DNA from: Armillaria gallica
Taxonomy: Eukaryota > Basidiomycota > Agaricomycetes > Agaricales > Physalacriaceae
Direction: 5' to 3'
Length of the DNA: 64,000 nucleotides
NCBI GenBank assembly: GCA_037576215.1
Contig: JBANDB010000002.1
Location: 1,984,001-2,048,000 of the forward strand
Position numbers and translations under genes: made by a program. The notes beneath the pieces are model-generated. The model was not told the origin of the DNA. It did no database searches and saw only the letters and a program-made list of their open reading frames with translations. This document shows positions 16,920 through 55,499 of the stretch, piece after piece (positions within the stretch are counted from its first letter, which is position 1; the number at the start of each line of letters is the position of its first letter).

Positions 16920-17910
16920 AGACCAAAGTAGAAGAATTTTAATCTTTCAGAGCTTTCCGCCACGTTTCGGGGCTCAAGATCGCCATGCAATGGCAAAGAA
17001 TCTAATTGCCTCACCGACTCAGGGAACCTATTCCTGACGTGGCCAGTTAATGAGTGATATTTGAAGACCCAGAGTCACTCACCATTGCATCCTGGGCGTG
17101 GACCTCTGTACCTCGGGCCAGCCTAGGTCGTACATCTCCCGAGTCCTCCAGACCGTCCCCAACGTCCCCAAGGCAGGAGGCGAACCATCCGCCGACGGGT
17201 CCTTTGGAACATATCACGAAACCTGGGAAGGAGAGAACATTCCTTCAGGACCACCTCGTAGATGTAGAACTCCCGCTGAATCATTTCCGAGTGCGTTTAC
17301 GGCCACAAGCTTAATGACAAAGGGCTCCTCACGGCCTTCAGGACGGCACGTCCACACAGTGCTCTATCGGCTGGCCCGAATCTTGCTTAGAAGGGCTACA
17401 ATGTCATGGGTTGTCGTTGGATTATGAGGAGCGTGACGACAAAGCTGCAACAGTGAAGTGTTGCAGCAAGGATATCGGGAGGTCTTTCATCGCGAGGCCG
17501 CAGTTCTTCCTGCTGGCTGTAGGAATGTTCTGAGGGATGTTAGCTTAGAGAAATCCGGCGTATGTCGCTCGATCGCAGCCGTAGGTGGTGCAACATCATC
17601 TAATAACATAAGTGTATTTAGTCGCAGCCGAATCATATCGATTCACTGCATTAGTTGCGACTTGTAAGGGAACAATTGGTATATCACCTTGATCTCCTCC
17701 AGCTCAGCCTTCTTCATCGACTTCCGCTGCATCTCTCATTGCCTCCAACAGGATAGAAGGAGGGTGTGCGACGCGGCTTCCAGGAATCAATTTGGAGAAT
17801 TCATAGCAACGACGACGGGAAATGGTTCGGTTTGAACTTTAGCCTCAAACTACGTGAGCGCTTTGTTAGGGTCAGGATGCCATGGAAAGTTTGGAAGCAG
17901 CAGGTGATAG
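16920..17910 (-). pseudogene. Protein-kinase-like relic, unit 3
   Basis: Minus-strand fragments correspond to the kinase-like gene: a degraded catalytic-loop region near 16960-16990, ARGTEVHAQDAMV near 17090, and the N-terminal WSF-type region toward 17420-17650. Indels break the frame repeatedly. The distal end (17880-17912, GGATGCCATGGAAAGT...GGTGATAGAA) is collinear with the units at 27.0 and 38.7 kb and runs directly into the duplicated block beginning AGGATATGTCCC. Confidence 0.5.
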
Positions 17911-37955: not shown

Positions 37956-38771
37956 TAAAGTAGGAGCTGATGGAATAATGGAAAGGCATGGACAGAAACT
38001 CTATACCTAACACCAAGACCAAATTCAGAGGTTTCCGCCACGTTTCGAGGTTCAAGATCACCATGCAAAACACCCAGTGAATGTAATTGCTTCACCGACT
38101 GTACTAGATGTCGCATGAAGGAGCCCGTCAATGAATGATATTCGCAGGCCCGGGACACTCACCATAGTATCCTGGGCATGAACATCTTTACCTCCGACCA
38201 GTCCAGGCCATACGTTTTCTCTAGATTGCCTCCAACATCTTCGAGGCAAAATGAGAACCTGCTTACGGCAGGTCTTTGGAACATCCCATGAAACCTGGGA
38301 ACGAGGGAGCATTCCTTTAGGACCATCTCGTACATGTAGAACTCCCGCCAAACCATGTCCGAGCGGGATTCCGGCACAAGCTTGACGACAAATGGCGCCT
38401 CACGGCCTTCAGCGCGGCACGTCCACATAGTGCTCCATCGGCCGGCCCGAGTCTAGCTTAGAAGTGTTACAACGTCAGGGGTTTTCGTTGGAGGAGCGCG
38501 ACGACAAAGTTACAATAGCAACCGGTGTTGCAGCAAGAATAGCCGAAAGTCTTTCGGCGCGAGGCCGTAGTTCTTGCTCGGAACGCCCAGAGTGTCCATA
38601 AATGGTTGGGAGGCGTGTCGCTTGAAATCTCGCTTACGGGTGTATGGTAAAGAATGGTTCGGTTTGAATGTTAAGCTGAAACTGCGTGAGTGAATAATGA
38701 TACTTTCTTCGCGCAGGGATGCACAAAGGATGCCGCGGAAAGTCTGAACGCAGGTGATAGAAGCAGCGATA
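37956..38771 (-). pseudogene. Protein-kinase-like relic, unit 7
   Basis: It has the same order as unit 5: MDTLGVPSKNYGLAPKDFRLFLLQHRLL, CRAEGREAPFVVKLVPESRSDMVWREFYMYE, VPRFHGMFQRPAVSRFSFCLEDVGG, then in phase SVKQLHSLGVLHGDLEPRN. A deletion follows (ETSEFGLG), so the DFG region is lost. The unit ends GGTGATAGAAGCAGCGATA, where the 15.8-kb element begins. Its natural continuation is found at 54577 onward. Confidence 0.6.
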
Positions 38772-38773
38772 CA

Positions 38774-38793
38774 TCGGGTATATAGACGTTCGG
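38774..38793 (+). repeat. Left terminal inverted repeat of the 15.8-kb element
   Basis: TCGGGTATATAGACGTTCGG. It pairs with 54556-54574 apart from one extra T. It contains AGACGTTC, which recurs as subterminal repeats near 39.4-39.6 kb. Confidence 0.75.
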
Positions 38794-40094
38794 AGTCACC
38801 GTGACAATTGTGACAGGGACAGCCATGGACAGCCACGGTCTCGGCTCGCGCGCGAGAGGATCTGGTCCCGCGGATGGGGAGAGACCAGCCGAGCCGTGAA
38901 TGAAAAAATGAAGATATCTAGTAGAGAGGAAGGAAAGAAAACGGGGACGGCGCAGCGGGGGATAGGAACTAACTAGTATAAGTAGTAGGTAGGCAGGAAA
39001 AGAGAGAATGTACACAGAGTAGTAATATAGTAAATTGCGACGCAAAAAAAATAAATTTGAAAAGAGCAGACAAGACAGACAGACTCACGAAGTCGTCGTT
39101 CCCCTCGCAGGAAGGGAGAACGACAAAGCAGGCGCCATTCTTGGTTATTGCTCTGCTCAGCGCAGCGCAAAATAGATATGTAAAACAGGAAGGAAAATTA
39201 AAAGGAGAGAGGGAGGGACACAGAACCAAAATGAAGGGAGGGGGACAGAATTTTATTTTCTTGGGCGAGTTGCCCGCTGTTTATGTGGCATCGTAGAGAC
39301 CGAGAAAGCACGTCGGAATAGAATACGGAATAGAATAGGAAAAACATGCACCGGAATTTGCCATGGCACACACCTTTGCAGGTTCATCCTTGGTAGGCAT
39401 GCGCGCCTCATGCCGTACCGTGTGCCCCTTGACTTGAACGTCTTTGATCTTTTGAACGTCTTTTCGGCCCGTATCCTGAACGTCTTTTTTCATACCTCAG
39501 CGTGCTTCTGATGCACTTCCTTCCCTGCCAAATTCCTAGGAAGTTGACTAGAGCCTGCAAAAAGACGTTCAGTTTATTCTCACGAGACGGTAAGTGCCCT
39601 ATTACGTGCTAATTATCCCTCTCAAGTCGTGTCGAGACGGCATGCTGTCATGTACCTGTCTCTAGGTCTCTCCTCTCCATTGTTCCTACCACAGGCGAGG
39701 TGACATCACAATCTAATCTACATGCATGCACGTCAAAGAACTATGTTGATAGTGTACATTGTAATTCCGATTTATTTATCCATGTCCCAACTCGAGAATG
39801 AGGAAGAAACCATCAAGATTGTATGCAACAAGGAAAGGTCAGTTCAGTTTGCACAACGTGAGAGTTCTCTTGGCCTATAGCGCCTGTCCGTCTCCGTCGT
39901 GACTATCCTTGCATTGTATGCCGTTAGCAGTGAGATTTGCCTAGCCCTCACTGATTATATCCATCACCGAGACTGCCATCATTGGATGAATCTGATGGAA
40001 GATGCGGTAGACCTTTCCGACACAGGAAACAAATGCAAGATGTGATGATATTTTGTACGAAAAATGCCAACAAGATGTCCCTATTCAAGCTCAA
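38794..40094. other. Left subterminal non-coding region of the element
   Basis: Low-complexity, purine-rich plus strand (38930-39260). Short ORFs look incidental. It holds the GAACGTCTTT repeats described separately. Confidence 0.5.
39436..39570. repeat. Subterminal GAACGTCTTT repeats
   Basis: GAACGTCTTT occurs at 39436-39445, 39454-39463 and 39478-39487, and inverted as AAAGACGTTC at 39561-39570. The core GAACGTCT is also the core of both terminal repeats. Such subterminal copies often bind transposases. Confidence 0.6.
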
Positions 40095-42265
40095 TCACAG
40101 TAATTCCTCCGCATCCAGATAGATACCCGATCTCGTTGTTGCCACTCGGTGTCGACGTTCAGGGACATATTCATCCGAGGTCTTGTGTGACAACTGGCGA
40201 GGAAGAACCGGTGCACGTCCAAAGTACAGGAAAAAAGTATCTGCATAAAATAAAGCAATCTGTTTCTCGAGATCCAGGAATTCCTCCTCTGTCCATCCAG
40301 CAGGCTTGACAGTCTCCAAGGATGCTGGATACCCCCGCCATGTTTTCATAACCTTCTTCATAGCAAAAATACAAGGCGCACGTTCCAGCCACAAGTGGTG
40401 AGCTACCCCATAGTTCGCAGATCCGACATCCAGTTGTCCGGGTAGATGTTGTCCATCTGCAAAGCACCGACTCAGGTCGAAAGCAGATATGCTTGGCCCT
40501 GAACTCGCAGCCGCTCGGTGATGCAGGGCCCTGAACTCGCAGCGAAAGTTGACTTCGCCAAGCTCCCAGCAGATTTCTTGACGTTCCTCTGTCGTGAGTG
40601 ATTGATAGGCCTTTCCTTTCCAAAAGGCCGTAGAGACTTCATTATTGCCACATAGAGGGAAGTCGTCGAGGTAACCGTCCATCATTTTTCTGACCTCCTG
40701 GCGTCGCTTCGTTGCTTTTCCGCCTGATTCGCCGGCCGAATGAAGAAACCCTAGCGCCAAGACTGCACGCCACTCTTGATGGTACAGGTTTGCTGGAACA
40801 CGCTCAGTCACAGTTAGACGAGCGTACAACGGTATTCGCAGGCGCAGCCATGACTCAAGGAATGAGTTCACCTTCTCGTCGGTATTCACGGTGGCAATTA
40901 TGTCTGGTCGAGGAAAGGCATACTGATTTTCACGGGGAATGGCCGTCGGATTAGAAGGAGATGGACGAGCACAAGCATGACAGCGCGCAGGATTTGCATC
41001 AACAGACAGCAGCGCAGTATGCCATGGTTCGAGCAGCGGAGGAAGGAGTGGATGTTGAGGGTCTATCAAGCGGTTAGAATGGCTGGACTTGGGCCGAGGA
41101 TTTTTATGATCTTTAAATACATTAAAACTCTGTGTTATCAAGATAAGGATGTGAATACTTACAAGGAGAATATCGTGAGGATGATGACGGAGCCACAGCC
41201 AGAGGAATGTCGCCGCGACTAAGTATGATTGGCGACGAGATCGCAAAGGGATCCACCCATCGGAGGGAATGCGTTACAAATTCCTGTATCTTGAGGTATT
41301 TCTTGGGATCGCTAGAAGACCCAACAAATACGGAAGGAAGCCTCAGATGACATGGCTCCCCCATGATTGGCGATGTCACAAACGGATAAAGTTCATCAAC
41401 CCGAGTACCAGCAAGATCCTTCATGGGAACCATGCGCCAAATGGGAATGCCAGCTTTGAAGAAACGTTGGACAACGGTAGCATCGTTGGAGAATGCACCC
41501 ACTAGATCCTTATCTACAGGGAGAGACGGGGCATCGCACCCTGGAGCATCCATACGTGGTTTAAAGATCGTCATGTATTCAACAAGTGCTCGTAACTCCC
41601 GGGCAACACGCTGGGTCTCTGCGAATGATAGGCAGACACGAGAAAACGAAGTAGGGAGAGCACGGAGTTGCCCAGTAAGGAGTTCAAGCATGCCCATGTG
41701 CCCACGCATACTGCGCACCATGCTCTCGGTTGCATCGACAGTGCTCGTAGACTCGACAATGATCTGACAAGCTTTCTCCAGCTTAAGAAATGTTGACTTG
41801 CGTAGGTGACCGACGCCCTTCACGATTGCTTGTGGATCACATTCAATGAAGTCGTATTCAGTGAGACGATGGTATAGTGGGTAGAAGGCATCACTAGGCT
41901 CTGGCTCGATGTAGCGAAGACAGGCAAGGTGCGGAAATTGCTCCACATAGGCCTGTGGCCAGTGCAAAGGGTCATCGTGTCCATACCGATAGTCGGCCCG
42001 CATGTAGACTTCACGGTTAACTCCCAAAGGAGGCATGCATATCATAGTGGCATTCGGGGTGATTATAAAGTAGTCGATATCATCGAAGACTGTACCCCAT
42101 TTACCGTCGAACGGTCTGACAGCTGGAGGATGAACTCTTGAGAATGTAGAAAGTGTGATACTGATTGTACGTACGAATGTTTACCGCACGACTGTGCAAC
42201 AGAATTGTTGGGTCTGAGCGAATTTTTGAGGGCGTCAAGTCGGGAGGAGGTAGCATCGGAAGTCC
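40095..42265 (-). CDS. Orphan protein of an expanded Agaricomycete family (5' end unresolved)
   Basis: The certain part is complement(join(40095..41110,41163..42122)). From the internal ATG at 42045 it gives 632 residues. The frame continues upstream (VRPFDGKWGTVFDDIDYFIITPNATM), and an in-phase exon at 42185..42265 (SDATSSRLDALKNSLRPNNSV) fits before it, so the true start lies further upstream, beyond 42300. Recognisable blocks are MRADYRYGHDDPLHWPQAYVEQFP, CLRYIEPEPSDAFYPLYH, DFIECDPQAIVKGVG, and VGAFSNDATVVQRFFKAGIPIWRM. A second half follows, containing CHACARPSP and WRAVLALGFL. I recall related multi-copy proteins of unknown function in mushroom genomes but no enzymatic domain. It is the leftmost gene of the 15.8-kb element and reads toward the left end. 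It has no obvious lesions. Confidence 0.7.
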
Positions 42266-42385
42266 CTGTGAAAGTTCAGTGAGAGTGTCATTGGGGGATA
42301 GGCCCTGAGGAAACGTACAGATAGTTTCCGAGGCCAAAAAAAGGGAATGTGTCAAGAGCAGAGTAATTAACGCGCTTTAGATGGC

Positions 42386-42499
42386 ACCGGCGACGAAAGA
42401 CGTCAAGCGGATACAGCGACGCACTTGCGTCAGCCACGGAAGGGTTTCTCGCCGACGAAAGACGTCAAGCAAGGACGGCGACACAATTGTGTCAACCGA
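42386..42499. repeat. Tandem ~62-bp units with palindromes
   Basis: Two units share GACGAAAGACGTCAAGC (about 42391 and 42453). Each is followed by a dyad: GACGCACTTGCGTC (42418-42431) and GACACAATTGTGTC (42480-42493). The two dyads differ in sequence but both keep the symmetry. Confidence 0.6.
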
Positions 42500-42534
42500 A
42501 AGGGATGAGTAACCGGGATCTTGAACTTGAGGAA

Positions 42535-42715
42535 GACGCGTATTGGTGAATCAATAGATGCCGTCGAGTGGCGAGAGCTTGAAGTTTGGCACAAGTTTTC
42601 GATTCGGAGGCTGACAAGGCGACAAGACGCGTAGCGGTGGATCAGTGGACGTGCGTCGTGGGGAGAGCTCACAGCTTCAAGGGACTTGGCACACGTTTTC
42701 GATGCTGACTAAGCT
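42535..42715. repeat. Tandem ~91-bp repeat, two diverged units
   Basis: Units begin GACGCGTATTGGTG (42535) and GACGCGTAGCGGTG (42626) and share GAGAGCT, TTGGCACA and GTTTTCGAT at matching spacing. Confidence 0.55.
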
Positions 42716-42730
42716 GCATCTCTTATCTGA

Positions 42731-42929
42731 CCGAATCAGTAACTGCCCTTTACCACCTACCGCTCTCCGCTGGCTTGACCCTACTGGGTCGGCCGTTCTG
42801 CTTGACGTCTTTCGTCGGCAGACTTATCTTCTCCTGTCTAACCGAATTACTGCCCTTTCCCTAACGCGCTCTCCGCTGGCTTGACCCTATCGGGTCGGTC
42901 GTTCTGTTTGACGTCTTTCGTCGGCAGAC
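42731..42929. repeat. Tandem ~111-bp repeat, two units
   Basis: CCGAAT...ACTGCCCTTT..CGCTCTCCGCTGGCTTGACCCTA..GGGTCGG..GTTCTG..TTGACGTCTTTCGTCGGCAGAC occurs at 42731-42824 and again at 42842-42929. The TTGACGTCTTTCGTC core is the inverse of the GACGAAAGACGTCAA core at 42.39-42.47 kb. Confidence 0.75.
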
Positions 42930-43249
42930 AACTGGACTTCCACGAGTTATGTCGCCCATGGGCTTTGCGGTATCTCCGGAATTCCCCTTACTAGCGCGAC
43001 CTTGATGGACGCGGTATACGTTGATGTCGGTTGGTGATCGCGCCAAGGGTGACGCAGAGCGAGGACTGGACTGTTTCTGCATTGGTGAAGTCAAGGTATG
43101 TATCGGTTCGTATACTTTTGTTTCCTTTCTCATGGTCCTATCTAGTGACGCTGTTGTGTATTTTGACACGCCATTCTCTCCTCTTCTCAGCAAACCTCCC
43201 ACCATGGTTACTAGCATCCTCCCGACCTCCTCGATCATTTAGTCTCTGT
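42930..43249. other. Spacer before the captured gene fragments
   Basis: ORFs on both strands overlap and resemble nothing known. Nothing else is supported. Confidence 0.35.
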
Positions 43250-44114
43250 TTTCCTAAACACAACAAACCTGCACATCTACCTTCTCCACGGTCCTACATT
43301 CCGTCGTCAGATAGCCGCTGGGACGCATCTCACGTCGCGTAACTTTGGAAACCTTGTCTTGGGAGTTTGCGCGCGTGCGGCCCACCATTCGGATGATCCT
43401 CGTGTCGGGCCTCTTGATCAAGCTGGATGGGAGTGGTATCTTCAGCTTCGGCCTATCCATTTATCCAGATTCTCAAATTCGACGACGCTCTGGGAGCTTC
43501 AGCTTGCGCCGTTGATGGTTTTGTTTTTGTACAGGACGACGTCACCTCAACCTTGTTTCGTACTCATTGGGTTGGGAATTCAGATGGCCCAAGATCTCGG
43601 AGCCCACCGAAAACGCCCTACGACCCTCAAAGAATGGACAGTCGAGGATGAGCTATGGAAGAGAGTATTCTGGGTGCTGGTGGTCATAGATGTGTTTGTC
43701 AGCGCTTTCGACGGAAGGCCGCGAGCAACAACTTCAGAAAAGTAAGGATCGATGCTTTCCATAATGCCGTCAGCTTATCATGCATTAACTTTGATTTAGA
43801 TTACCCTTTCGAAGTCGACGAAGAATTTTGGCCAGGAGAACCACTTTCTGATCCAGAAAATCCATGGGCTCAACCTTCGCAGAAACCCGCTAATGTCGTG
43901 ACATGGATATTATGCATCAAACTACTGGATATCCTCAGTTTTGCTCAAGTAACAATTGTTCGTCGGTTCTCACCTCTCAAGTTATCACGGCTTATATGAA
44001 GTATAGTATTCAATTAAACGGTCTGAATATTGGGACGCTATATCAACATCTAAATGGCACGAGAACGTCGCCGTCGAGCTAGATTCCGCTCTGAACAAAT
44101 GGATAGACTCAATA
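43250..44114 (+). pseudogene. Fragment of a fungal transcription factor (Fungal_trans middle-homology domain)
   Basis: In Zn(II)2Cys6 regulators this domain follows the DNA-binding cluster. The fragment begins LHIYLLHGPTFRRQIAAGTHL and continues GNLVLGVCARAAHHSDDPRV, LIGLGIQMAQDLGAHRKRP, VEDELWKRVFWVLVVIDVFVSAFDGRPRATTSE. A 47-base in-phase intron (43743-43772 region) follows, then NFDLDYPFEVDEEFW, ILCIKLLDILSFAQ, a second intron, and YSIKRSEYWDAISTSKW...ALNKWIDSI. Splice sites and frame are intact throughout. The zinc cluster and the C-terminal end are both missing: the reading frame passes directly into fatty acid synthase sequence at about 44115. Confidence 0.8.
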
Positions 44115-47107
44115 CAGACACCAACCATCGTGAAGGTTGGTTTTGTTAGTGCCGGATAGCACATCGAATTAGCTTGTGGAGGCTTCTATAACACTGCCGC
44201 TCTCCATGCAAAAGTTGCCGAGGTTCGAACTAAGATTCCTACACAGTTCACCTTCCAACTCCCTCTCTGGTAGGAGATGAGAAAGCAGCGTCTTCCCATA
44301 GAAGGATTCTGTGTTGCAGCCAGTATCTCACTGAGAAAGCCGTCGAGATCATTGGTGTCTCGAGCAATATCAAGCACGTCTCTTTTAAACCCGGTTCTAT
44401 CGATATCATTCGACAGGATATTAACAATGACAACATTGTCTCCGTCAATCCCGACTTTTCCATCCATCATCCTCCTGCAGGTGGTCATCATTCTTACGAG
44501 GACTTCCACCAGTCCATTCTCGTGACCTATCGCGCCATTCGTCAACACCGCAACGTCAGCCTTGTCGCCGGCTCTGGCTTTGGAGCGGCTGATGATGTTT
44601 ATCCCTACTTAACTGGCCCATGGTCTGTAGAGCGCTTTGGTGTGCAGCCGATACCCTTCGATGGATGTATGTTTGCCAGGCATGTCGTGGTGGCCAAGGA
44701 GGCTCATACGAGTCCTTCGGTCAAGGATCTCATCGTCGCTGCGCCTGGCCTGGTGTCGACGATGTATGACAAGCCCACTGGTGGCATTCTCATATTCCGT
44801 TCAGAGTTGAGTGAGCCTATTCACAAGGTGGCCACGAGGGCCGTCAAGTTGTGGAGGGACCTCAACGATACAGTATTCGGTTTGGCAAAGGAGAAGCGTG
44901 CAGCTTGGCTGGTTGAACGCCATGACGAGGTTGAACAAGGACTTCAGAAAGCCTTGGTTTGCATGGGAGAAGGATAGATCAGTTGCTCGTGCGCTCAGCG
45001 ATATGACCTACGAGGAAGTGTCGCTGCGTATGGTTCATCTTATGTTCGTCTCTCATCAATCCCGTTGGGGCGATCCCTCGAAGAACCTCACCGGTGACTG
45101 GTTGCGACGCATCAAGGAGCGTTTTACTGGAGATAACGGGCAAATCTAGCAAGCCATCGGTGTTGCAACTGTACACTTCTCTCCTTTGCCTTTCATCCAA
45201 TCGTTTGTTGGTGGTACGATGCAATTGTTAGCGGCAGAGGATTCGGCATTCTTCCACGCCATCTCCAAGAGGCGTGGAGAAGCCCGTTCACTTCATTCCT
45301 GTTCTTGATGTTTCGTTTGAAGTCTGGTTCAAGAAGGTATGCCCATAACTCGCAGTTTCTTTCACGTTTCTAACAAGGTTTGTTGTAGGATTCATTGTGG
45401 GCCGCTGAAGATATCGAGGTCGTCTTCGATCAAGATCCTCAGCGAGTGTGTAATTTGCAGGGTCCGATGGCTGTCAAGCACTCCAAGGTCAAAGATGAAC
45501 CCATCAAGGGCTTACTCGGCAACATTAACTCGTCTCTCATTCAACGTGTTCTTGAATCCCGATACGGCGGCGACCTTGCCAAAGTCCCTGTCGTCGATTA
45601 CTTTGCACCCAATCCCTCAACAACCGTTGTATGCCCGAAGGTCAAGATCTCGGAAGCATCTGGACGTCGTGTTTATGAATTCGGATCCAGTTTGCCTTCT
45701 CCCTCGGTGTGGTTTGAGACGCTCGCCGGTCCTCGTTCAAGGGTCTGAATACATCGACAACCCTATGCGTCGTCTTCTCATTCCTCCAGCTAACCAGAAG
45801 GTTGTTGTATCTTCATCATCTGTTTCCATCTACGGGGCTGCTTTCAACGCCGTAGAGATCAAGTTCGACAAAGCTTCCAAACTCAACAACGTCACCTTGT
45901 TTGAGGATCGCCAGGATTCCTCAGTGTCTCTCTCTTTGCAGTTCAAGTACGTTCCGTCCGTCGATGGGCTTTGCGCCCATTCACGAAATTGTGACGGGAA
46001 GGAACACTCGCATACCGGAAGCTATCTATGGTTTGGTGACGACGGCTCATTACCGGAGCTCAACGTCGGCGATGTTTTCCTGGTCCGGAGGTAGTCATCG
46101 AGGCTGCAGCTGTCAAGCAGTTCTGTACCGTTATCGGTAACCAAGTCGAGTCTTTCAAGACTGCTCGCAAGGACACTTCGGCGCCCATGGGCTTCGCCAT
46201 TGTCAGGGGTGGCAGGTCAGTCTTTCCTTCATTCCATGTAGCGTTTCCCTTATTAATCACCTTGTTTATAGGCTATCATGAAGTCGATTTTCCCCGCTTC
46301 GATCGACGGTGATCTTTTGAAGCTCGTCCATCTGTTCAATGGTTTCCGTATGACTCATGGAGCCCGGCCTCTCACAGTGGGCGACGTTTGCCAGGCAATT
46401 GCTCAGATTGTTTCCGTCACCAACCAATTCGAGTGAGGGCAAGATTGTCAAGGTCAAGGGTACTGTTCAACGAGACGGATCCCCTGTAGTGGAAGTTGTC
46501 TCGGCTTTCCTCTACCGTGGCCGCTTCTCTGACTATGAGAACACCTTTGATACCTCTAAAGAGCCGGATCATGTCGTCGAGATTACTTCCGATGCGGAAG
46601 TTGGAGTTCTCTAGTCGAAAGAATGGTTCGAGCGGGAACTCGACCCTCCAGCCCGGAACGTCCCTCATTTTCCGCCTTCAGTCTCACGTCTTGTTCAAAG
46701 ACAGGACGCAGTTCCGTGAACTCACTGTTTTTGGAGACATCTTTATTCGCAACAACCTCAAGCAGATGATCAAAGTCGGGTCTATTGATTTCCAACAAGA
46801 AAATTGCCATGGAGACCCTCTCCTCGCCTATGTGCAACGACATGGCAAGGCCGACGAGCTCCTCTATACCCTCCCGAACGGCGACTACACTATGACAGAG
46901 GTCGACACAACTTTCAACGCGCCTCTGACGAACGAACCTTACTCAAAGATTTCCGGAGATTTCAACCCAATCCACGTTAATCCTTATTTCTCTTGTTATG
47001 CGTCGTTGCCTGCCACAATCACCCATGGTTTGTGGAGTAGTGCGGCGACCCGCCGTTATGCTGAAAGTGTCGCGGCTCAAGGTCATCCTGAGCGTATCCG
47101 TCATTGA
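44115..47107 (+). pseudogene. Fatty acid synthase fragment (enoyl reductase to MaoC-type dehydratase region)
   Basis: It matches the beta part of fungal type I FAS in order. First come TPTIVKVGFVSAG and HIELACGGFYN, then IKHVSFKPGS, GGHHSYEDFHQ, SLVAGSGFGAADDVYPYLTG, FGVQPIPFDG and VAKEAHTSPSVKDLIVAAPG. Next are MTYEEVSLRMV, DSLWAAEDIEVVFDQDPQRV and KFDKASKLNNVTLFEDR. Last are LSSTVAASLTMRTP-frame material, then ISGDFNPIHVNPYFSCYASLPATITHGLWSSAATRRYAE and HPERIRH. Stops at 44157-44159 and 44271-44273 and several frame changes (near 44960, 45300, 45725, 46080, 46430, 46610) make it non-functional. It lacks the acyltransferase and everything after the dehydratase. Similarity ends at 47107, next to a hairpin. 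Confidence 0.85.
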
Positions 47108-47166
47108 ATTATGACGTATTTGCACCTGTCGAATCCTGATTTTTGGATGTGCAAGTACGTCATAAT
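47108..47166. repeat. 18-bp inverted repeat (hairpin) at the end of the FAS fragment
   Basis: ATTATGACGTATTTGCAC (47108-47125) pairs with GTGCAAGTACGTCATAAT (47149-47166) with one mismatch and a 23-base loop. It starts where FAS similarity ends. Confidence 0.7.
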
Positions 47167-48033
47167 AGCTCATCTACACACTTACCACCTTCATGTCGGC
47201 TCTCATTTAGTTTTGAATACGGTAACTGTACCATATACTTCCTGAAGACTCTTATAGTGGTGGCAAGCAGGCGATCATGCATCCCTTCAGCGAGCTCGGC
47301 TCATATGCTTGCGTTGTTTGGTATGGTGAGTTGCATTGCACGCTGTTCGTTTAATTAGCTTCTTACTGTTGTAAGCCATTCTGCAGCACCACATCCAGAA
47401 TAATACTGTCCCCACCGGGATCCATGCCGTGTCTCGAAATAGCTCTCACAGAAACATTCTAAACGGTCCGTTGATCTTCGAGCTCTGCCTTTTTATCTAC
47501 TTACACATTTCTATCAAGTACGTTAGCCGTGGTGAAGAGCGAAAAGCACAGAACCATGTCATTCGCTCGAAGCAAGCAAGATTTTCTTTGACGTCGCAGG
47601 TTGGTTTTTCTCTGATACCTATGCAGCGTCCTAGCTTAGGCTGTCGATTTCAGATGTCCTCCAACACGCGATCGTCGCACGATGCACAAGGGAGATTCAG
47701 AAGCGAGAATAGCAGTACAGGCCGATGCTGCCTTGCTATCCCACTGTTAGAGCCGATATATCTATCCCACTGTTAGAGGTAATATAGTTGAGGGCAGGAA
47801 ATACAGATATGCTGTGGTTAGGGTGTCTTGAACTCGGCGGCTTCACCATGGGAGAAACGCCTTGACATCGTGAGGATGCTTTCAGCATGAACATGGATGC
47901 AGCCACTTGCGATGATTACTGTTCGGACTCGCCAATCGCCGCGGTCTCAAAATCATCGCCACTGATCCACCTGCCCTTTAAAATCTTAATGCAACTTGAG
48001 ACAACTCCTATAGTATCGTCCTCTCTTACCGCC
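47167..48033. other. Spacer upstream of the nuclease gene
   Basis: No supported gene. CTATCCCACTGTTAGAG occurs twice 26 bases apart (about 47736-47752 and 47762-47778). The nuclease promoter must lie in the last part. Confidence 0.45.
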
Positions 48034-50331
48034 ATGGGTGTCAAAGGTGGCTGGGGTGTATGTTTTTTTGGTAGTGATCTAGACGCTTAACATCGCTCAC
48101 ATTTTCCGCAGCTGCTAAACCCCACCGACTCGATATCTCTGGTTGACTGGTCTGCTCAGATAATTTCAACGGGTACAATTCACAGCTTAGGCCCACGCAT
48201 AGGCGTCGATGCTAGGTATTCAATTAATACATGATCCATGTTGAGACTGACTAATCTTTCTAGTGGATGGATGTTCGCTGCAAAATTCCATCATGGTCAA
48301 ACAAAGAGTACAGCGCAAGCGTCGTTGTTCAAGCGATTGGGTCGTCTCTTTCACCTTCCGGTCCTGCCTCTATTTGTTTTTGACGGTCCAAAGCGTCCTG
48401 TCAACAAGCGTAAAAAGAAAGTAACCAAGACGACCGACTGGTTAACTGCAGAATTCAAGGACTTGCTCGAAGGATTTGGGTTCCCGTATTGGGATGTATG
48501 TTGACCTTACTTCCTCCTATTTTCTCCTCCTTATACAAGGACTTAGGCTCCAGGCGAAGCCGAGGCTGAGCTGGCACTGCTTTCGAACAAAGGCCGGATC
48601 GATGTTGTGATGTCGGAAGACTTCGATGCAATGTTATTCGGTGCTCAACGAGTGATGCGGATGTAGGTGGTATCTCTCATTTACTTTACATTACTAAATC
48701 AAATATTTCAGCACCGACGAAAGCGACTCTAACTATATGGTCAAAGTCTATGAAAAGGGATCTCAATTCTCCCCGAACGAGCTGGTAATGATCGCGTTAC
48801 TTGCCGGTGGCGATTACGACGTAAGTCATTTAAGAATCATCATTGAATTTATTATCACTCACATCATATAATAGGAAGGAATTAAAGGGTGTGGAATCCA
48901 GACTGCTGCCGACATCACTCTGACAGGCATCGGTGAACGCCTGTTTGAGGCCCTCGAAGCTTCTCCGGTCAAAGATTACCCCGTTATTGCTTCCAAATGG
49001 CGCAATGACCTTTGCGTTATGCTGAAGTCCCAAAGGGTTGGCCGTCATCGTGCACTGGCATCGAACATTCCTCTTGACTTTCCGAAGGTTTCAGTTTTAG
49101 TCCAATATGTTCAACCACTAATATCGGCAAATGGCTTGCTCGCCCTGCCTGCCGCTCCATCACCATGCCCACCAGATATTCCCAGACTCGCACAGCTGTG
49201 CGAGAATTTATTCGTCTGGGGACATTCAATGGGCATCGTCAACCATTTTTGTGAACACATTTTTCCAGGACTAGCGATTCGGGAGCTGCTTCAGGACTTG
49301 TGCAAGCGACGGGGAGTTATGCTGGAGAGTGACACATCCTTGTCCCCTTATACCGTCATCTCTAATGTGTGTTCTATCCGCGCGAATCAGCGTGACCGAT
49401 CAGACTCTGAGATTTTCGTCTCCCTCACCATCCCTCATGCTATTATCACTCAAATCAGTTCTTCCATTGATGGGAAATACGACACTGACATCACCCGGAA
49501 CTCGCTTGATCAATGGCTACAGAAACGCAATGTTCGCACATGGCTTTCCCGTGTATTGGCACTCCATGCACGGCCAACCATTCTAGACAAGGAGGAACAT
49601 CTGATATCCAAGGCTGCTAAGAAACGCGGTCCTCTACCAGCACGCATCAAAGACAAGGGGCTGCCATCGCCGCCACAGCAGTCTAGAAGAGCGGTCGCTG
49701 AACCAGTCAGGGAAGAGAGCGAACACCTGCATGGTGAGAGTTACTGTCTGTGTCAAACGTGCATGACTCATGTGCAGTAGAAACTTTTACAGGAAAACGA
49801 GCTCGCTCTACTTCAATTATTGATATTTCTAGTGGTGAGGATGAGAGCGAAACCGGTAAGAATCACCAAAGTCGATGTGTCGGAAGCACCCATAGATATT
49901 TTCTAGAAATTCCAGTGAAAAAACGCCGCCGTCATGCAGCATCCCCGACGTACCCTCGCTCCGCCTCAGTTATTGATATTTCTAGTGGTGAGGATGAGAG
50001 CAAGACAGGTAAGAATCACCAAAGTCGATGTGTCGGACGCACCCATAGATATTTTCTAGAAATTTCAGTGAAAAAACACCGCCGTCATGCAGCATCCCCG
50101 ACATACCCTCGCTCCGCCTCAGTTATTGATATTTCTAGTGGTGAGGATGAGAGTGAAACCGGTAAGAATCACCAAACTCAATGTTTTCGAAGCATCTATA
50201 GCTATTTTCTAGAAAAATCAGCGAAAAATCACCCCCATCGTGCCAAGTCCCCGACGTATCATATCCAGGTTCACTGTTTGGACACTGGCGAGATCTTAGA
50301 GCTTTGTACGGACGACGAAGATGGAACTTGA
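48034..50331 (+). CDS. XPG/Rad2-family structure-specific nuclease (GEN1/Yen1-like)
   Basis: Modelled as join(48034..48057,48112..48215,48264..48495,48547..48662,48712..48820,48875..49733,49778..50331), 665 residues, all joins in phase. The family cuts flaps and branched DNA, including Holliday junctions for GEN1. The N-terminus MGVKGGWGLLNP is the family start. Metal-binding acidic residues are all present: GVDAS, FVFDGPKRP, GEAEAELALL, SEDFDAMLFGA and GGDYDEGIKGCG (helix-hairpin-helix region). The middle part is unassigned. From about residue 480 the tail holds three tandem 51-residue repeats (153-bp period at 49818, 49971, 50124). Each contains S-V/I-I-D-I-SSGEDES, which looks like a SUMO-interaction motif, and a basic KKRRRH patch. 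It lies inside the 15.8-kb element, 110 bases before the recombinase gene on the same strand. It appears functional. Confidence 0.88.
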
Positions 50332-50441
50332 ACAGGGGTACTCCTCCTATTATATGTATATATATTCGTGTACTTTCTCAAAGTTTTCCTTACCTTGCAT
50401 ACTGTTCCCCGTCTCTCTCTCTGGTCTCTCTCTCTATCACG

Positions 50442-52150
50442 ATGGCTGTCGCAAGCAAGATGAAAGTTGGAGACAACGATATTGCGAATGCTAAAGGGAT
50501 TTGCAGAGTCCTGGACAAGTCTCGCCCCGACTATCCAGAGGAAAACGAAATCGAGGATGATGTTGAGGGGGAGCGAGAAACCTGGGGTGATACGTACAAT
50601 CATGACGACGACGGTGACATGCAAATGGACCCAAGCATATCTGCTGAAGACAGAGATTATCTTGATGTCATCCGGGATGCTTCAAAAGGCGTCAAAGAGG
50701 GCACGAATGATGCTTATCAAGGGTATAGCCAGCCATTCTCACTTCACTACTATTGTGCTAATCAAGCTGTCTCTTACTAGTGTCATGAGACTGTTCAATG
50801 AATTCCTTGTTGAAGAGGGGTTCATCCAACCTGGCACCAACATCTTCAAGCAAAAGGTGCTCGATCCAAAGACTGATTACTATATCATCGGCTTTATTAT
50901 GAGCAAGTATGTCTTTCCTCTTGCAATTCCCAATGATTGTCTAATGTTCCTTCGAGATGCGATGATTGTGATATGCATGGGGTTGACAAAGCGCCCCATG
51001 TCATTCAGAATAGCTACTCATATGCACAGAAACTTCGGGCAGGCGCTACTTTCGGCTTTCGAACAGCTGGTGGTAGGGAGCGTGCTTGGAACAGGGAAAA
51101 CGCCTCCGGAAATCCCTCGATCTCACAGTTGGTCTCGTGCTACATGCTCGGGTTACGAAAGCGTAAGGTGACGGAGTTGAAGATGTGTATTCATCACCTG
51201 TCTGACAAGGTTTCCAGGTAGCTAAGGGAGAAACTTCCACGAGCGCTCGTGCTATTAGTCCTGTAGGTCTTCCATTTGATCTACGATCTTAACCTCAATG
51301 ATTTTCAGGATGATCTTCTCAAGCTGTACGAGTTCAATCGCCGTGCGGAGAACTGGGATAATGCACAAGTATCTGCTAATAATTGGTGTGGAGCAAATAT
51401 GCGCCGTCTCCTTGAAGCCGTCTATCTTGTTGCATTTACATGCTTACTTCGTATCGATGAGGCACTGAAGATCCAGCTTCATGATCTACACTTCTACGAT
51501 GATCCAGTAGACGGTACAGCTTGTGTGTCAGTGACTCTGCCATTCCGCAAGAACAGCCCATATGGGAGTAAGTCTATTGAGTGCTAGATCTCTGCTGCGA
51601 CACTAATAGTAATGCAGAGATACCACCGTTCATACTCAGAGAGCTTCCGGATGATATGGCACATCTTTGCCCTGTTAGAGCACTTGCAGAATGGGTTGGC
51701 ACCTCGGAGATTCTACATGGCTATCTGTTCCGCAGGATGGATAAAAGAGATAGGCCGATTGTTGCGAAAAACACCCACATGGTAAGGGCACCTCGTTTTC
51801 TAATCACACGCGTAATTCACTTCTGGATTCTTGATCCCCGTTAGACTGCAGAAGCGTTTCTGGAACTGTTTTGTAACAATTTGTGCGACCTAGAAATCGC
51901 GCCTTATGCTTATGGCACCCACTCTTTTCGCCGTGGAGGCTGCCAATGGCTCTCTGTTGATCTTCGTTGGTCGCTTCGGCAAATATGCGAGTGGGGAGGA
52001 TGGAGCTCCGATTTTTCTCACTTGACCATTGTTAAATACCTCATCTCCTGGAACGATAACCCAATGTTACGACGGGATGATTTCTTCAAGCTCGACCGCC
52101 AATTGTTAGTCCAGTGCCGGACTTGTGGTCGCACATGTCCATGTGCTTAG
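50442..52150 (+). CDS. Tyrosine recombinase-like DNA breaking-rejoining protein (Crypton-type)
   Basis: Modelled as join(50442..50722,50781..50906,50957..51167,51218..51262,51309..51567,51618..51781,51845..52150), 463 residues, all in phase. Residues 1-95 are acidic and disordered (ENEIEDDVEGERE). An N-terminal SAM-like core follows (SYSYAQKLRAGATF, SISQLVSCYMLGLRKRK). The catalytic domain shows LLRIDEALKIQLHDL (first Arg), GTHSFRRGG (H-x-x-R), GGWSSD (Trp/Gly in place of the second His) and TIVKYLISW with the likely nucleophilic Tyr. The C-terminus CRTCGRTCPC could bind zinc. Such enzymes act as recombinases of Crypton elements or as domesticated relatives. The gene is intact. It follows the nuclease and is convergent with the next gene (80 bases between stops). 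Confidence 0.82.
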
Positions 52151-52229
52151 ACATATTGATTAACTATACTATTTGATATCAACAGCAAAATTCATTGTCC
52201 AAACATATACTACTAGTGAGAATTGTAAA

Positions 52230-54212
52230 TTAATCATCATCCTGGCTCTCCATCCCATTCTTCTTTCTGTAGAGGTTGGCTATTTTGGAGGCATCTATCA
52301 TAGTCACCCACGCACACCCATTCCTCCCTACGTACCCAAACTCACTCGCAAATCTATCTCCGTATTCATTGATGGCCCTTTGGGTCAATTCTGCATCGGC
52401 CTCCTTCCGTTCTTCTCGAAGGATGTCTGATATTCGTGAGAAAGAGAACCGTTGACCTGACGCATGCGAGAAACGAGCCCAGAACCCATCTGGCGTGAGA
52501 GCCCGATAGGACTTCATAAAATGCTAATGGTAATGGTTGAGTGAGAGAAAATGCAGCTGGGAAAACCACATACGTGCCAAAGACCCCAGACGTGTTTTAG
52601 TCGTTTCCACTCACCAGGCAGTGCATTGTTTGAACAATAAAGATCACGCCAAAGTCTGATAGGAATTGGACGCTCATAGATTTTGATTGGGTAATCGCTG
52701 GTGGGATTCCACTCAGGACTGCCATCGTCCCAGCTAGCGATAAGGCTTGTCATATCCGAGGCATATCGGAACGGCTTTGTTGGAGGGACTGCGCCTTGAT
52801 CGACACTCAAGCTGGTGCCATCTGCAAACTGCAAGGTGCATTGCTTGGAGCCACCGGACACAGCATCGGAAGCTTTTGTGTTGTGGCCGTTTGTCAGGGG
52901 TGAAAATGCTGGCATCACCTGGGGAGGTGGAAAGGAGGGCAGAGTGGCTTGGTCCAGTGTGAGCCGTTCAAAGGATGGCATGGTGGGTGAATCAGGCCGA
53001 TCCACAGCATCAAAGATGTCGACAGAATGCGCCGTAAGTCCCATGCTGGCAGTGTCAATGCTAATTGAGGGACGGGGAGACAATGTAGTCGGTGCGACAC
53101 CAGTTGATGATGCGACCGCAGCTAGCCAAGCCTCAACAATGGAGGCAACACGGTCTGCAAACAGCGGGTTTTCAAAGAGATCTGAGGGCTGTACAAGAAT
53201 GGAATCAATTAATCATTGTCAGAGTAGGATGACGGTGAGAGACATACATTGAACGATTGTCCGACAGAGATACTATTTGCCCTTCGCTCCTGGAGATGGG
53301 TATGGCGTGGGACTTTTGGCTTGGCATTGGCAATCCTGGCTCGCACGCGGTGACACTGAAAAACTCGTTAGGAACTGCAATGTTGAAAGAGCTAGAACAG
53401 GAAGCGAACCCATGGCAGTATCTCATCGATCTCAGCCTGACTCCGGGTGTCCTTTGACCGTTGAACAGACAATCCCACTGCAGAGGTATTCGCCAGCCGA
53501 CTTGCGTTTGCAGTGAGGAGACGAGCGCGTAAATGAGTTGGCTTCCTTGGCTTCTTTGCCTTTGTGACCCCGCCGCTTGCGACCCCATGGCTCCTGATGC
53601 CTTTGTGAGCGATCCGTGCTGGAAGTAACAGGCTAGTAGGAGAAGGGAAATTAGCTGCTGTAAGGATTTTGTGAACACTCACGCACCTTGATCTCCATTT
53701 CTCCATCCCACCGTGGCTGAATGAGATCAGTCGCTCCCGTCGCACGGGCTTGGTGCCTGAGTAGGCGAGATTGAACTGCTTGCACAGTTCCATGAAGTCA
53801 ACACTTGAATTTGATGCCATAGACCTATAAAATGTAAAGCATCAACAGGATTAGCAGGGAAGGGCGAACATACAAGTCAATTATCTCCACCCCAAAGTTC
53901 CCATCCTTGTCTGGGCCTACAGGGAAAGGATATTTAGACTCTTCATCTTCTGGAGTTGTCGTCACTGAAGGAGGTAGACCCTGTTCCTCTGCTGTGGGCA
54001 CCGGCGCTGTCAGAGATGTAGAAGGCGGCTCCCGTGCCACATCCATGGTGAGTCCAACAACAACAAGTCCAACGGTGTGAGCGGCGTCTTCCTTAGCGCG
54101 GTCGCGGTCGAGCTTCCTTAGCTTGAGCTTGATGATGAGAACGGCTGTCAAAATGAGAGCAACGAAGGCGCCAAGTGCTCCAAGGCCAGCAGCAAGACTT
54201 GGTATTCCACCA
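52230..54212 (-). CDS. Unknown element-borne protein with possible membrane anchor (first exon unresolved)
   Basis: Modelled as complement(join(52230..52523,52574..53188,53248..53355,53410..53632,53687..53824,53874..54212)) with all internal joins in phase, giving at least 571 residues. The initiating exon upstream of 54212 was not found. If translation began at the internal ATG at 53820, it would give 457 residues. The N-terminal exon has a hydrophobic run (GLGALGAFVALILTAVLIIKL) followed by basic/acidic residues, then Pro/Thr-rich sequence. Next is FMELCKQFNLAYSGTKPVRRERLISF, a basic KAKKPRKPTHLRARLL segment, a Ser/Pro-rich linker, and a conserved C-terminal module: RPIPIRLWRDLYCSNNALPGEWKRLKHVWGLWH, then DGFWARFSHASGQRFSFSRISDIL. 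I recall this module from mushroom genomes near recombinase genes but know no function. It is the rightmost gene of the element, read inward. Confidence 0.65.
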
Positions 54213-54555
54213 CTGTAAAAACAGGGAAAACAGGGAAGAGTCTCAGCATAGCATATTAATAATAGGGGTGGGCAGGGAGAAAATGGCACGGCTGCTCCAT
54301 GTTCGGATACGGATACGAACACGATGGGCAGGAGGAGAGAGGAACAGAGGAACAAATGCAAAAAAAAAAAATGCAGGGGCAGGCAAAAAGGGACAGAACG
54401 CGATCGGCCGCGCCCAACGAACGCGACGAACGCGATGATCATCTCATCGGAGGAGGGCACGGAGGCAATCAAGGGCAGAGCCAAACAGAAAGACGATCCC
54501 TGGGAGCGTCTTGTCTCGCGTGACGAGACATTGATTTCGGCAATCGCCGCGTGAT
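54213..54555. other. Right subterminal region of the element
   Basis: Non-coding. It contains an A12 run at 54360-54371 and GAACGCGACGAACGCGA-like short repeats near 54417-54435. It probably holds the promoter and first exon of the minus-strand gene. An ATG at about 54301 (MEQPCHFLPAHPYY) opens only a short frame. Confidence 0.4.
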
Positions 54556-54574
54556 CCGAACGTCTATATCCCGA
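54556..54574 (-). repeat. Right terminal inverted repeat of the 15.8-kb element
   Basis: CCGAACGTCTATATCCCGA, the inverse of 38774-38793 less one base. It is followed by GG and then GAAGTAGGATATG, the resumed flank. Confidence 0.75.
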
Positions 54575-55499
54575 GGGAAGTAGGATATGTCCCGGGCGGG
54601 ACATATTCGTAGACTGGACCAGAAATGATCTGAAATGTCTGTCAAGCTTAGCGATGAAGAGATCACCTAGCTGGGCAACAATGGCAATGAACCTGTAGAA
54701 AAAAAACCCGCACCCTACATGTGAAGTAATCATCTGTAATGTGAGCTACACTGTGAGATGGTGAGATGGTACAGCACCCGATAAAGACTGACTTTGACGG
54801 CCATAGAGCCGACACCTTTTGCTCTGTAGTGGTATCAAGACAGATTGGACGGCCTGCCAAGAGCCTCTGCTTTGGAAAGTAATGCAGAGAACACGTTATC
54901 CTCGTCAGAGCAGGTCGGCGTTCAACGTCATCAACTTGTCGGGTAAGGGACATAGTAAAGTGGCCCTTCTGTGAAAACTCCGATGTCCCTGACATGCCAG
55001 CTTGAACGTGCCACTTGGACTGGCAGTGCCAGCGATGGCCCGAATGACAGATTCTATCGCCCTAGTAGCATATTCGCCACAGAGGCTCATGCTGTTATCG
55101 TCCTAGAGTTCTGATAACCGCCTATGGTCAAGGCTGTCCAACATCGACTGACAAAACACATCGCCAATACTGAATTCACCGATCCTTTAATTGAGAAAGT
55201 CTGTAAACACAGGGATGAGCAACATTTGGCCAGCTGAGGAATGGTCGATCCGTGGGAGGGGTCAGGATATCTTTTGCATGATAGTCAGCCGTTGTCGTCC
55301 CTGTGGACGGGCGTGGGCTGCTGAGGTGCGATAGGAAGGAACGTTAGGAACTCCCGGTTGTTGGGCGGAAGTCAAGAGAAGTCCCCCCTTCTCTGTCTTT
55401 CCCATGTTTCTGAGTCTTCCGAGTCCTAGCCGCCGATTCTCTGGTATACTTGAAACTAGTTTGATCATTTCCCTATGGCCTTCTCCCATTTGCGAGATA

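Follow-up and report, generated by a model that had tools for sequence, protein, structure and literature searches.

The window, that is, the whole stretch of DNA analysed here, comprises 64,000 nucleotides of Armillaria gallica contig JBANDB010000002.1 (C2:1984001-2048000), and the genome searched amounts to 86.0 Mb in 28 contigs, written below as C1, C2 and so on. Inserted in the window is a real, recently multiplied, gene-carrying mushroom transposon with a tyrosine recombinase. Four core genes lie within it: gene b at the left end, a nuclease gene, the recombinase gene and a right-end gene. A second full-length copy is present on C16, and two diverged relatives, C1a and C1b, lie on C1. The borders and core genes, in window coordinates, are as follows.

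38760..38763, left GAAG direct repeat (GAAG is found on both sides in three of the four elements read at both ends)
38764..54576, element body, 15,813 bp, delimited by the full-length copy on C16 and by unbroken counterparts of the site
38777..38794, + strand, left inverted-repeat arm, 13 nt inside GAAG, with counterparts in C16 and, diverged and seen by eye, in C1a and C1b
40095..42180, - strand, gene b, left-end core gene, two long open frames (~650-690 aa)
48034..50331, + strand, XPG/Rad2-type nuclease gene, about seven exons, from open frames
50442..52150, + strand, tyrosine recombinase, 463 aa, seven exons, hand-made model with GT-AG introns
52230..53822, - strand, right-end core gene, convergent with the recombinase gene, N-terminus SAP-like by eye only
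54555..54572, - strand, right inverted-repeat arm, 4 nt inside GAAG, terminus conserved in 4/4 elements
54577..54580, right GAAG direct repeat, present in 4/4 elements

Borders and sites without the element

The initial annotation had described a kinase relic and a segmental block as contiguous at 17.91 and 27.06 kb of the window and interrupted at the insert, and the motif GATAGAA..AGGATATG is indeed found at 17906 and 27059. When the flanks of the insert are joined, giving ...GATAGAAGTAGGATATG..., they align through the junction with no break at all six distinct paralogous places (79-96% identity), and do continue each other as had been proposed. These counterparts are the one at 27.06 kb (L003/L010), the one at 17.9 kb (L015) and, outside the window, L011-L014; L012 and L013 hold an identical stretch of 17 bases, exactly GATAGAAGTAGGATATG. 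The junction of kinase relic and segmental repeat recurs in inverted orientation elsewhere on the contig of the insert, at C2:2077101-2192532 (L011-L014), as far as ~170 kb away from it.

The second copy, the lack of which had been named beforehand as a sign of rearrangement, occupies C16:344350-363504 (19.2 kb with two nested inserts), and searches with each end lead to the same place. The two copies are collinear over their whole length and share their ends, and their flanks are unrelated. All 500 bases of the joined C16 flanks have a 95% identical counterpart at C16:392032-392532; a second, partial match covers bases 161-481 at 74%. The element is thus a defined unit with conserved termini, present at two unrelated sites that both also occur without it in paralogous DNA. 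The site on C2 lies within a field of repeated kinase relics, where segmental duplication or rearrangement might be thought of instead of transposition. That explanation is contradicted by the shared borders, because the copies, at sites unrelated to each other, stop at the same termini, each site has an unbroken counterpart, and the right terminus also ends the two diverged relatives; we consider it extremely improbable, and the earlier view that the insert arose by transposition is upheld.

The duplicated bases are GAAG only. Of the mutated target duplication suggested at first, the 4-bp repeat therefore stands; the longer part, CAGCGATA, is the element's own end, since the C16 copy has CAGCGATA too.

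Among gaps of at least 9 bp, the C16 copy carries additional pieces of 1,673 and 1,785 bp and is without five stretches (9-32 bp) of the C2 copy. The two inserts, found in C16 only, lie at C16:350535-352207 and 355056-356840 (L005), with overlaps of ~5-6 bp at their borders. Base differences affect 622 of the 15,722 aligned columns, and 592 of them are transitions. Of 591 transitions classed by context, 501 fall at CpG, with T in C16 for 478 and T in C2 for 23. Once columns that are CpG in either copy are excluded, 116 of 13,937 differ (0.83%), so that both copies are fairly young. CpG observed/expected is 0.53 in the C16 copy and 0.93 in the C2 copy; the C16 copy has decayed at CpG, in the manner, as we interpret it, of methylated repeats, and the C2 copy has not. 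Around the C16 copy (C16:330001-370000, L004-L007) the same ratio is 0.46 in the left 14 kb and 0.99 in the right 6.5 kb.

Termini and related elements

The arms at 38777-38794 and 54555-54572 pair at 17 of 18 positions. This value was reached by none of 300 intervals of 15.8 kb drawn at random from the window and compared over their outer 40 bases, the best having 16; the inverted repeats of about 20 bases reported earlier at the ends are therefore genuine, if near-terminal. A search for the arm pattern with up to three mismatches gave 10 places. Three of them coincide with arms in the two known copies; the other seven are at chance level, because a reversed control gave six.

C1a (~27.2 kb, taken as one element by inference across 9 kb, 6107001-6116000, outside the sequence read) and C1b (~21.3 kb) have both termini, the left-end gene and the trio of genes at the right end. 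They match the C2 element over stretches of its left 4.2 kb and right 6.6 kb. The mutual 95% match of C1a and C1b stops one base beyond the right end of the C2 element, at CCGAGGGAAG, and the right end ...CCGAGGGAAG is common to the C2 element and two other elements. GAAG follows on the right in all four elements and precedes on the left in C2, C16 and C1a. The left borders of C1a and C1b rest on a sharp rise to 93% identity and on the terminal motif, because their flanks share other repeats.

Ten recombinase loci were found in the genome, a match at C4:2558197 being counted as the rest of a split C4 gene. The nuclease gene lies upstream in seven, the right-end gene downstream in seven, and both are present in six, among which the C4 locus is split by ~29 kb and joined by inference, and the C1a nuclease is split by 4.4 kb. 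Gene b lies to the left in C2, C16, C1a and C1b, and a weak 23% match lies near C6. The apparently split recombinase gene at C4:2528585-2558680, with a copy of gene b 4 kb beyond, is possibly a case of one element inside another.

Near-end inverted repeats and a 4-bp duplication also resemble a terminal inverted repeat (TIR) transposon, and the element might be non-autonomous or composite, with a DDE transposase supplied in trans, GAAG as target duplication and the recombinase as cargo. The presence of a recombinase gene in an element is no proof that it moves the element, and there is a precedent: in the available part of PMC3212892, MarCry-1_FO is described as a Crypton fused to mariner and moved by a DDE enzyme. 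Six-frame Pfam scans of the element (E up to 0.01) found no DDE, reverse-transcriptase or helicase family, although supply in trans would escape them. Furthermore, both arms lie inside the ends, one farther in than the other; the same four bases occur at independent sites and the ends of C1b differ, a pattern better explained by a recombination core than by a staggered-cut duplication; and the recombinase gene has kept both the nuclease gene and the right-end gene beside it in 6 of 10 loci. We therefore regard a TIR/DDE origin as unlikely, though the most serious of the alternatives.

Tyrosine recombinase

The seven exons of the recombinase gene lie at 50442-50722, 50781-50906, 50957-51167, 51218-51262, 51309-51567, 51618-51781 and 51845-52150. 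It comes third among the core genes and lies 2.4 kb from the right end; the gene of the C16 copy is broken by a 31-bp gap. Homologues number 270 at E up to 0.001, the 16 best being from Armillaria/Desarmillaria. Of the best 120 of these 270, 117 are named and three unnamed, and the genera of the named ones (Armillaria, Mycena, Lentinula, Agaricus, Lactarius, Suillus, Schizophyllum, Exidia and others) are ones that we take to be Agaricomycetes.

In an alignment of 37 homologues, R260, E263, K293, H379, R382, W406 and Y418 show complete or at least 90% conservation; these residues presumably correspond to Cre R173, E176, K201, H289, R292, W315 and Y324. The predicted structure of a relative, P0002 (mean predicted local distance difference test score, pLDDT, 78), has Cre as its best match over both domains, with a large whole-chain root-mean-square deviation. 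Alignment and structural model together indicate a Cre-like recombinase whose catalytic set is complete. Pfam detects this family poorly: Phage_integrase gives E 0.24 in the C2 protein and matches 6 of the 37 homologues. The statement in the initial annotation that an intact nuclease and tyrosine recombinase occur here with no recognisable DDE gene agrees with the Pfam searches, the structure comparison and the six-frame scans as regards the presence of the two and the lack of the third.

Comparison with known mobile elements

Cryptons are tyrosine-recombinase DNA transposons with direct repeats of 4 or 6 bp at their ends and a proposed circular intermediate, as set out in the part of PMC3212892 available to us. 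The present element likewise encodes a tyrosine recombinase and has short direct repeats at its ends (GAAG on both sides in 3/4, C1b departing on the left). It differs in the GCR1_C DNA-binding domain of fungal CryptonF, which was found neither in the C2 recombinase at E up to 1 nor in the 37 homologues at E up to 0.01; one of the 37 has a weak NDC10_II match (E 0.0066). Cryptons are also without terminal inverted repeats, in contrast to the 17/18-nt inverted repeat near the ends of this element, which has four core genes and host-gene cargo besides.

Starships are a superfamily of the Pezizomycotina, 15-700 kb in size, with cargo and direct and sometimes inverted repeats (PMC12134995, seen in part). 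A divergent Starship, a giant cargo element moved by its recombinase, would share with ours the short direct repeats, the inverted repeats, the cargo, the sites without the element and, as inferred here, the mode of movement; its size would be at the low end of that range. Starships of 42-606 kb, called with Starfish recombinase models, are also reported from the basidiomycete Tremella fuciformis, according to an extract of PMC13066641. However, no DUF3435 captain match was found in the C2 recombinase at E up to 1 or in the 37 homologues at E up to 0.01, though the model matches three other places in the genome. The captain is the leading 5' gene in Starships, whereas our recombinase gene lies near the right end; an XPG-type nuclease in the core, a small pseudogene cargo and an Agaricomycete host are further differences. 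A Starship identity is accordingly very improbable. The places matching DUF3435 (Starship-captain type) above the cut-off are C13:1097571, C1:5242060 and C1:1879639.

Ngaro retroelements, which also have a tyrosine recombinase, are annotated in Armillaria borealis, with three listed in the consulted section of PMC7487993, and a remnant of an Ngaro/DIRS-type retrotransposon with a surviving recombinase gene was considered. It seems scarcely credible: no reverse transcriptase or RNase H domain was detected in six frames, the companion gene is a DNA-repair-type nuclease, and the cargo retains a host intron, which implies capture at the DNA level.

Pack-MULEs and gene-capturing Helitrons carry intron-containing host gene fragments. 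Our element resembles them in this respect and differs in being recombinase-based, in its GAAG ends and in having no transposase or helicase family by Pfam. The element would work much as Crypton and Starship do, the closest kinds, and departs from each in a tested defining feature; no tested named superfamily fits, as had been suspected from the outset. No account of such an element was found in the literature searched, which took in no preprints, few subscription papers and some sources in part.

Interpretation and proposed mechanism

We read the element as an autonomous DNA transposon of Agaricomycetes moving by tyrosine recombination, with a probability of roughly 0.84. From its gene content and ends we infer that it would be moved by its own recombinase. 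Besides the MarCry precedent, several observations weigh against this. The arms lie 13 and 4 nt from the ends. GAAG stands at the junction in only three of the six C2 counterparts, the others having AAAG, GTAG and GAAT, and the C16 counterpart has GAAAG where the joined flanks have GAAG. C1b has TCAG, not GAAG, on its left side, and each of its four genes has one stop within the part tested. C1a and C1b share a 1.4-kb repeat (84%) outside their right ends, at different distances, and pieces of 71-80% outside their left ends, before the 93% block. Finally, most of the 65 genome matches of gene b are far from any recombinase found. The unequal ends of C1b (TCAG/GAAG) would fit recombination across a mismatched core, and just as well a mutation that arose later.

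In the proposed cycle of this transposon, the recombinase would bind the inverted arms near both ends, and the element would be excised as a circle joined at GAAG. The circle would then enter another GAAG site and so come to be flanked by GAAG. Branched DNA arising in excision, insertion or copying is probably trimmed or resolved by the XPG-type nuclease, and a part in DNA binding or regulation is likely for gene b and the right-end gene. DNA repair may place pieces of host genes, as templated insertions, in the element's middle, one set inside an older one.

Core genes and selection

XPG_I is found in the nuclease above the Pfam cut-off (E=3e-11), and XPG_N just below it. The tail of the protein contains the following repeat.

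49802..50260, + strand, 3 x 153-bp in-frame repeat with VIDISSGEDE

By eye, the VIDISSGEDE repeats look SUMO-interaction-like. C1a and C1b match only part of the nuclease tail with the 153-bp repeats. GEN1/Yen1 are XPG/Rad2 nucleases with XPG_N and XPG_I regions; the nuclease of the element resembles this type in both regions and in its tail with SUMO-interaction-like motifs, and differs in that its gene belongs to a mobile element.

Gene b has no Pfam match. Its 65 matches in the genome (query: window 41125-42045) mark a large protein family, and its homologues number 25, all 20 named ones from Armillaria/Desarmillaria. An AlphaFold run with the window frame and 18 of the 25 homologues gave a mean pLDDT of 44.7, too poor for a structure search. 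The right-end gene has no significant Pfam match, so the SAP reading is without Pfam support; a homologue search that used one of its open frames as query gave a single protein, from A. novae-zelandiae.

When compared with C1b, the nuclease has a ratio of nonsynonymous to synonymous substitution rates (dN/dS) of ~0.18 over 468 codons and the right-end gene one of ~0.13. Gene b has proportions of nonsynonymous (pN) and synonymous (pS) differences of 0.21 and 0.77 over 659 codons; in the recombinase pN is 0.21 and pS is saturated, as for gene b. In the comparable parts of all four core genes, amino-acid-changing differences are far fewer than silent ones. Synonymous sites are saturated in this comparison, which was made without the smallest recombinase exon (45 bases) and without the tail and first exon of the nuclease; no match came from another exon of the recombinase gene or from two segments of the right-end gene.

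Cargo

Between gene b and the nuclease gene lie fragments of a fatty acid synthase (FAS) gene and a transcription-factor gene.

42969..43217, + strand, FAS fragment, 5' part, intron kept
43217..44115, + strand, transcription-factor fragment (Fungal_trans), 899 bp, 96% to C9:1861629-1862527, inside the FAS fragment
44117..47099, + strand, FAS-beta fragment, frames broken, 86% to C3:4557221-4560395

Window positions 43077-43217 match C3:4557080-4557220 at 90% and 44117-47099 match C3:4557221-4560395 at 86%, and these two counterparts on C3 adjoin each other. By eye, over 1.1 kb at the two ends, FAS code continues on both sides of the C3 place, with GQGSQ after the matched part. Because the code runs on beyond the match, we take C3 to hold the host FAS gene, the likely source of the piece in the element, which retains an intron, is truncated on either side and has a broken reading frame. 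The Fungal_trans domain was found in the window piece 43217-44115. Since this piece sits between the two FAS parts, the order of capture would follow as FAS first and transcription factor later, and both would precede the parting of the C2 and C16 copies, because C16 has both pieces.

In the genome search, the cargo DNA of the C2 element had no match anywhere on C1. The cargo of C1b gave just a weak, below-cut-off acyl-CoA-oxidase match (E 8e-4), and our claim for it is limited to its not being the C2 cargo.

A wider reading, which we offer tentatively and hold to be rather doubtful, is that the Agaricomycetes have their own, Starship-independent lineage of cargo-mobilising recombinases, in which recombinase, nuclease and two further core genes form one unit. 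The nuclease would open or resolve DNA, and host pieces would be copied, piece in piece, into a fixed bay between the left-end and nuclease genes, making the element a gene-collecting machine. An independent kind in mushrooms, if true, would suggest that the cargo-moving recombinase lifestyle evolved more than once; with cargo sources still matchable in the same genome, gene capture would also be readable stepwise.

Subterminal and internal repeats

Three further sets of repeats were identified in the element.

39436..39572, four subterminal ACGTCTT/AAGACGT copies, resembling the core of the arms
42387..42929, repeat clusters with GACGAAAGACGTCAAGC, at a position common to C1a and C1b
47108..47166, inverted repeat between the cargo and the right-hand module, 18-nt arms and 23-nt gap, also in C1a/C1b

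Among the repeat motifs tested, just two exceeded all 100 Markov samples: AAGACGT (9 observed in the element, 1.96 expected, maximum 7) and AAGACGTC (4 observed, maximum 2). The shorter AGACGT is not unusual in the element, with 13 observed, 6.8 expected and a sample maximum of 15. A 302-aa open frame (window 53828-54733, - strand), which has no Pfam match and may be due to chance, spans the right border of the element.

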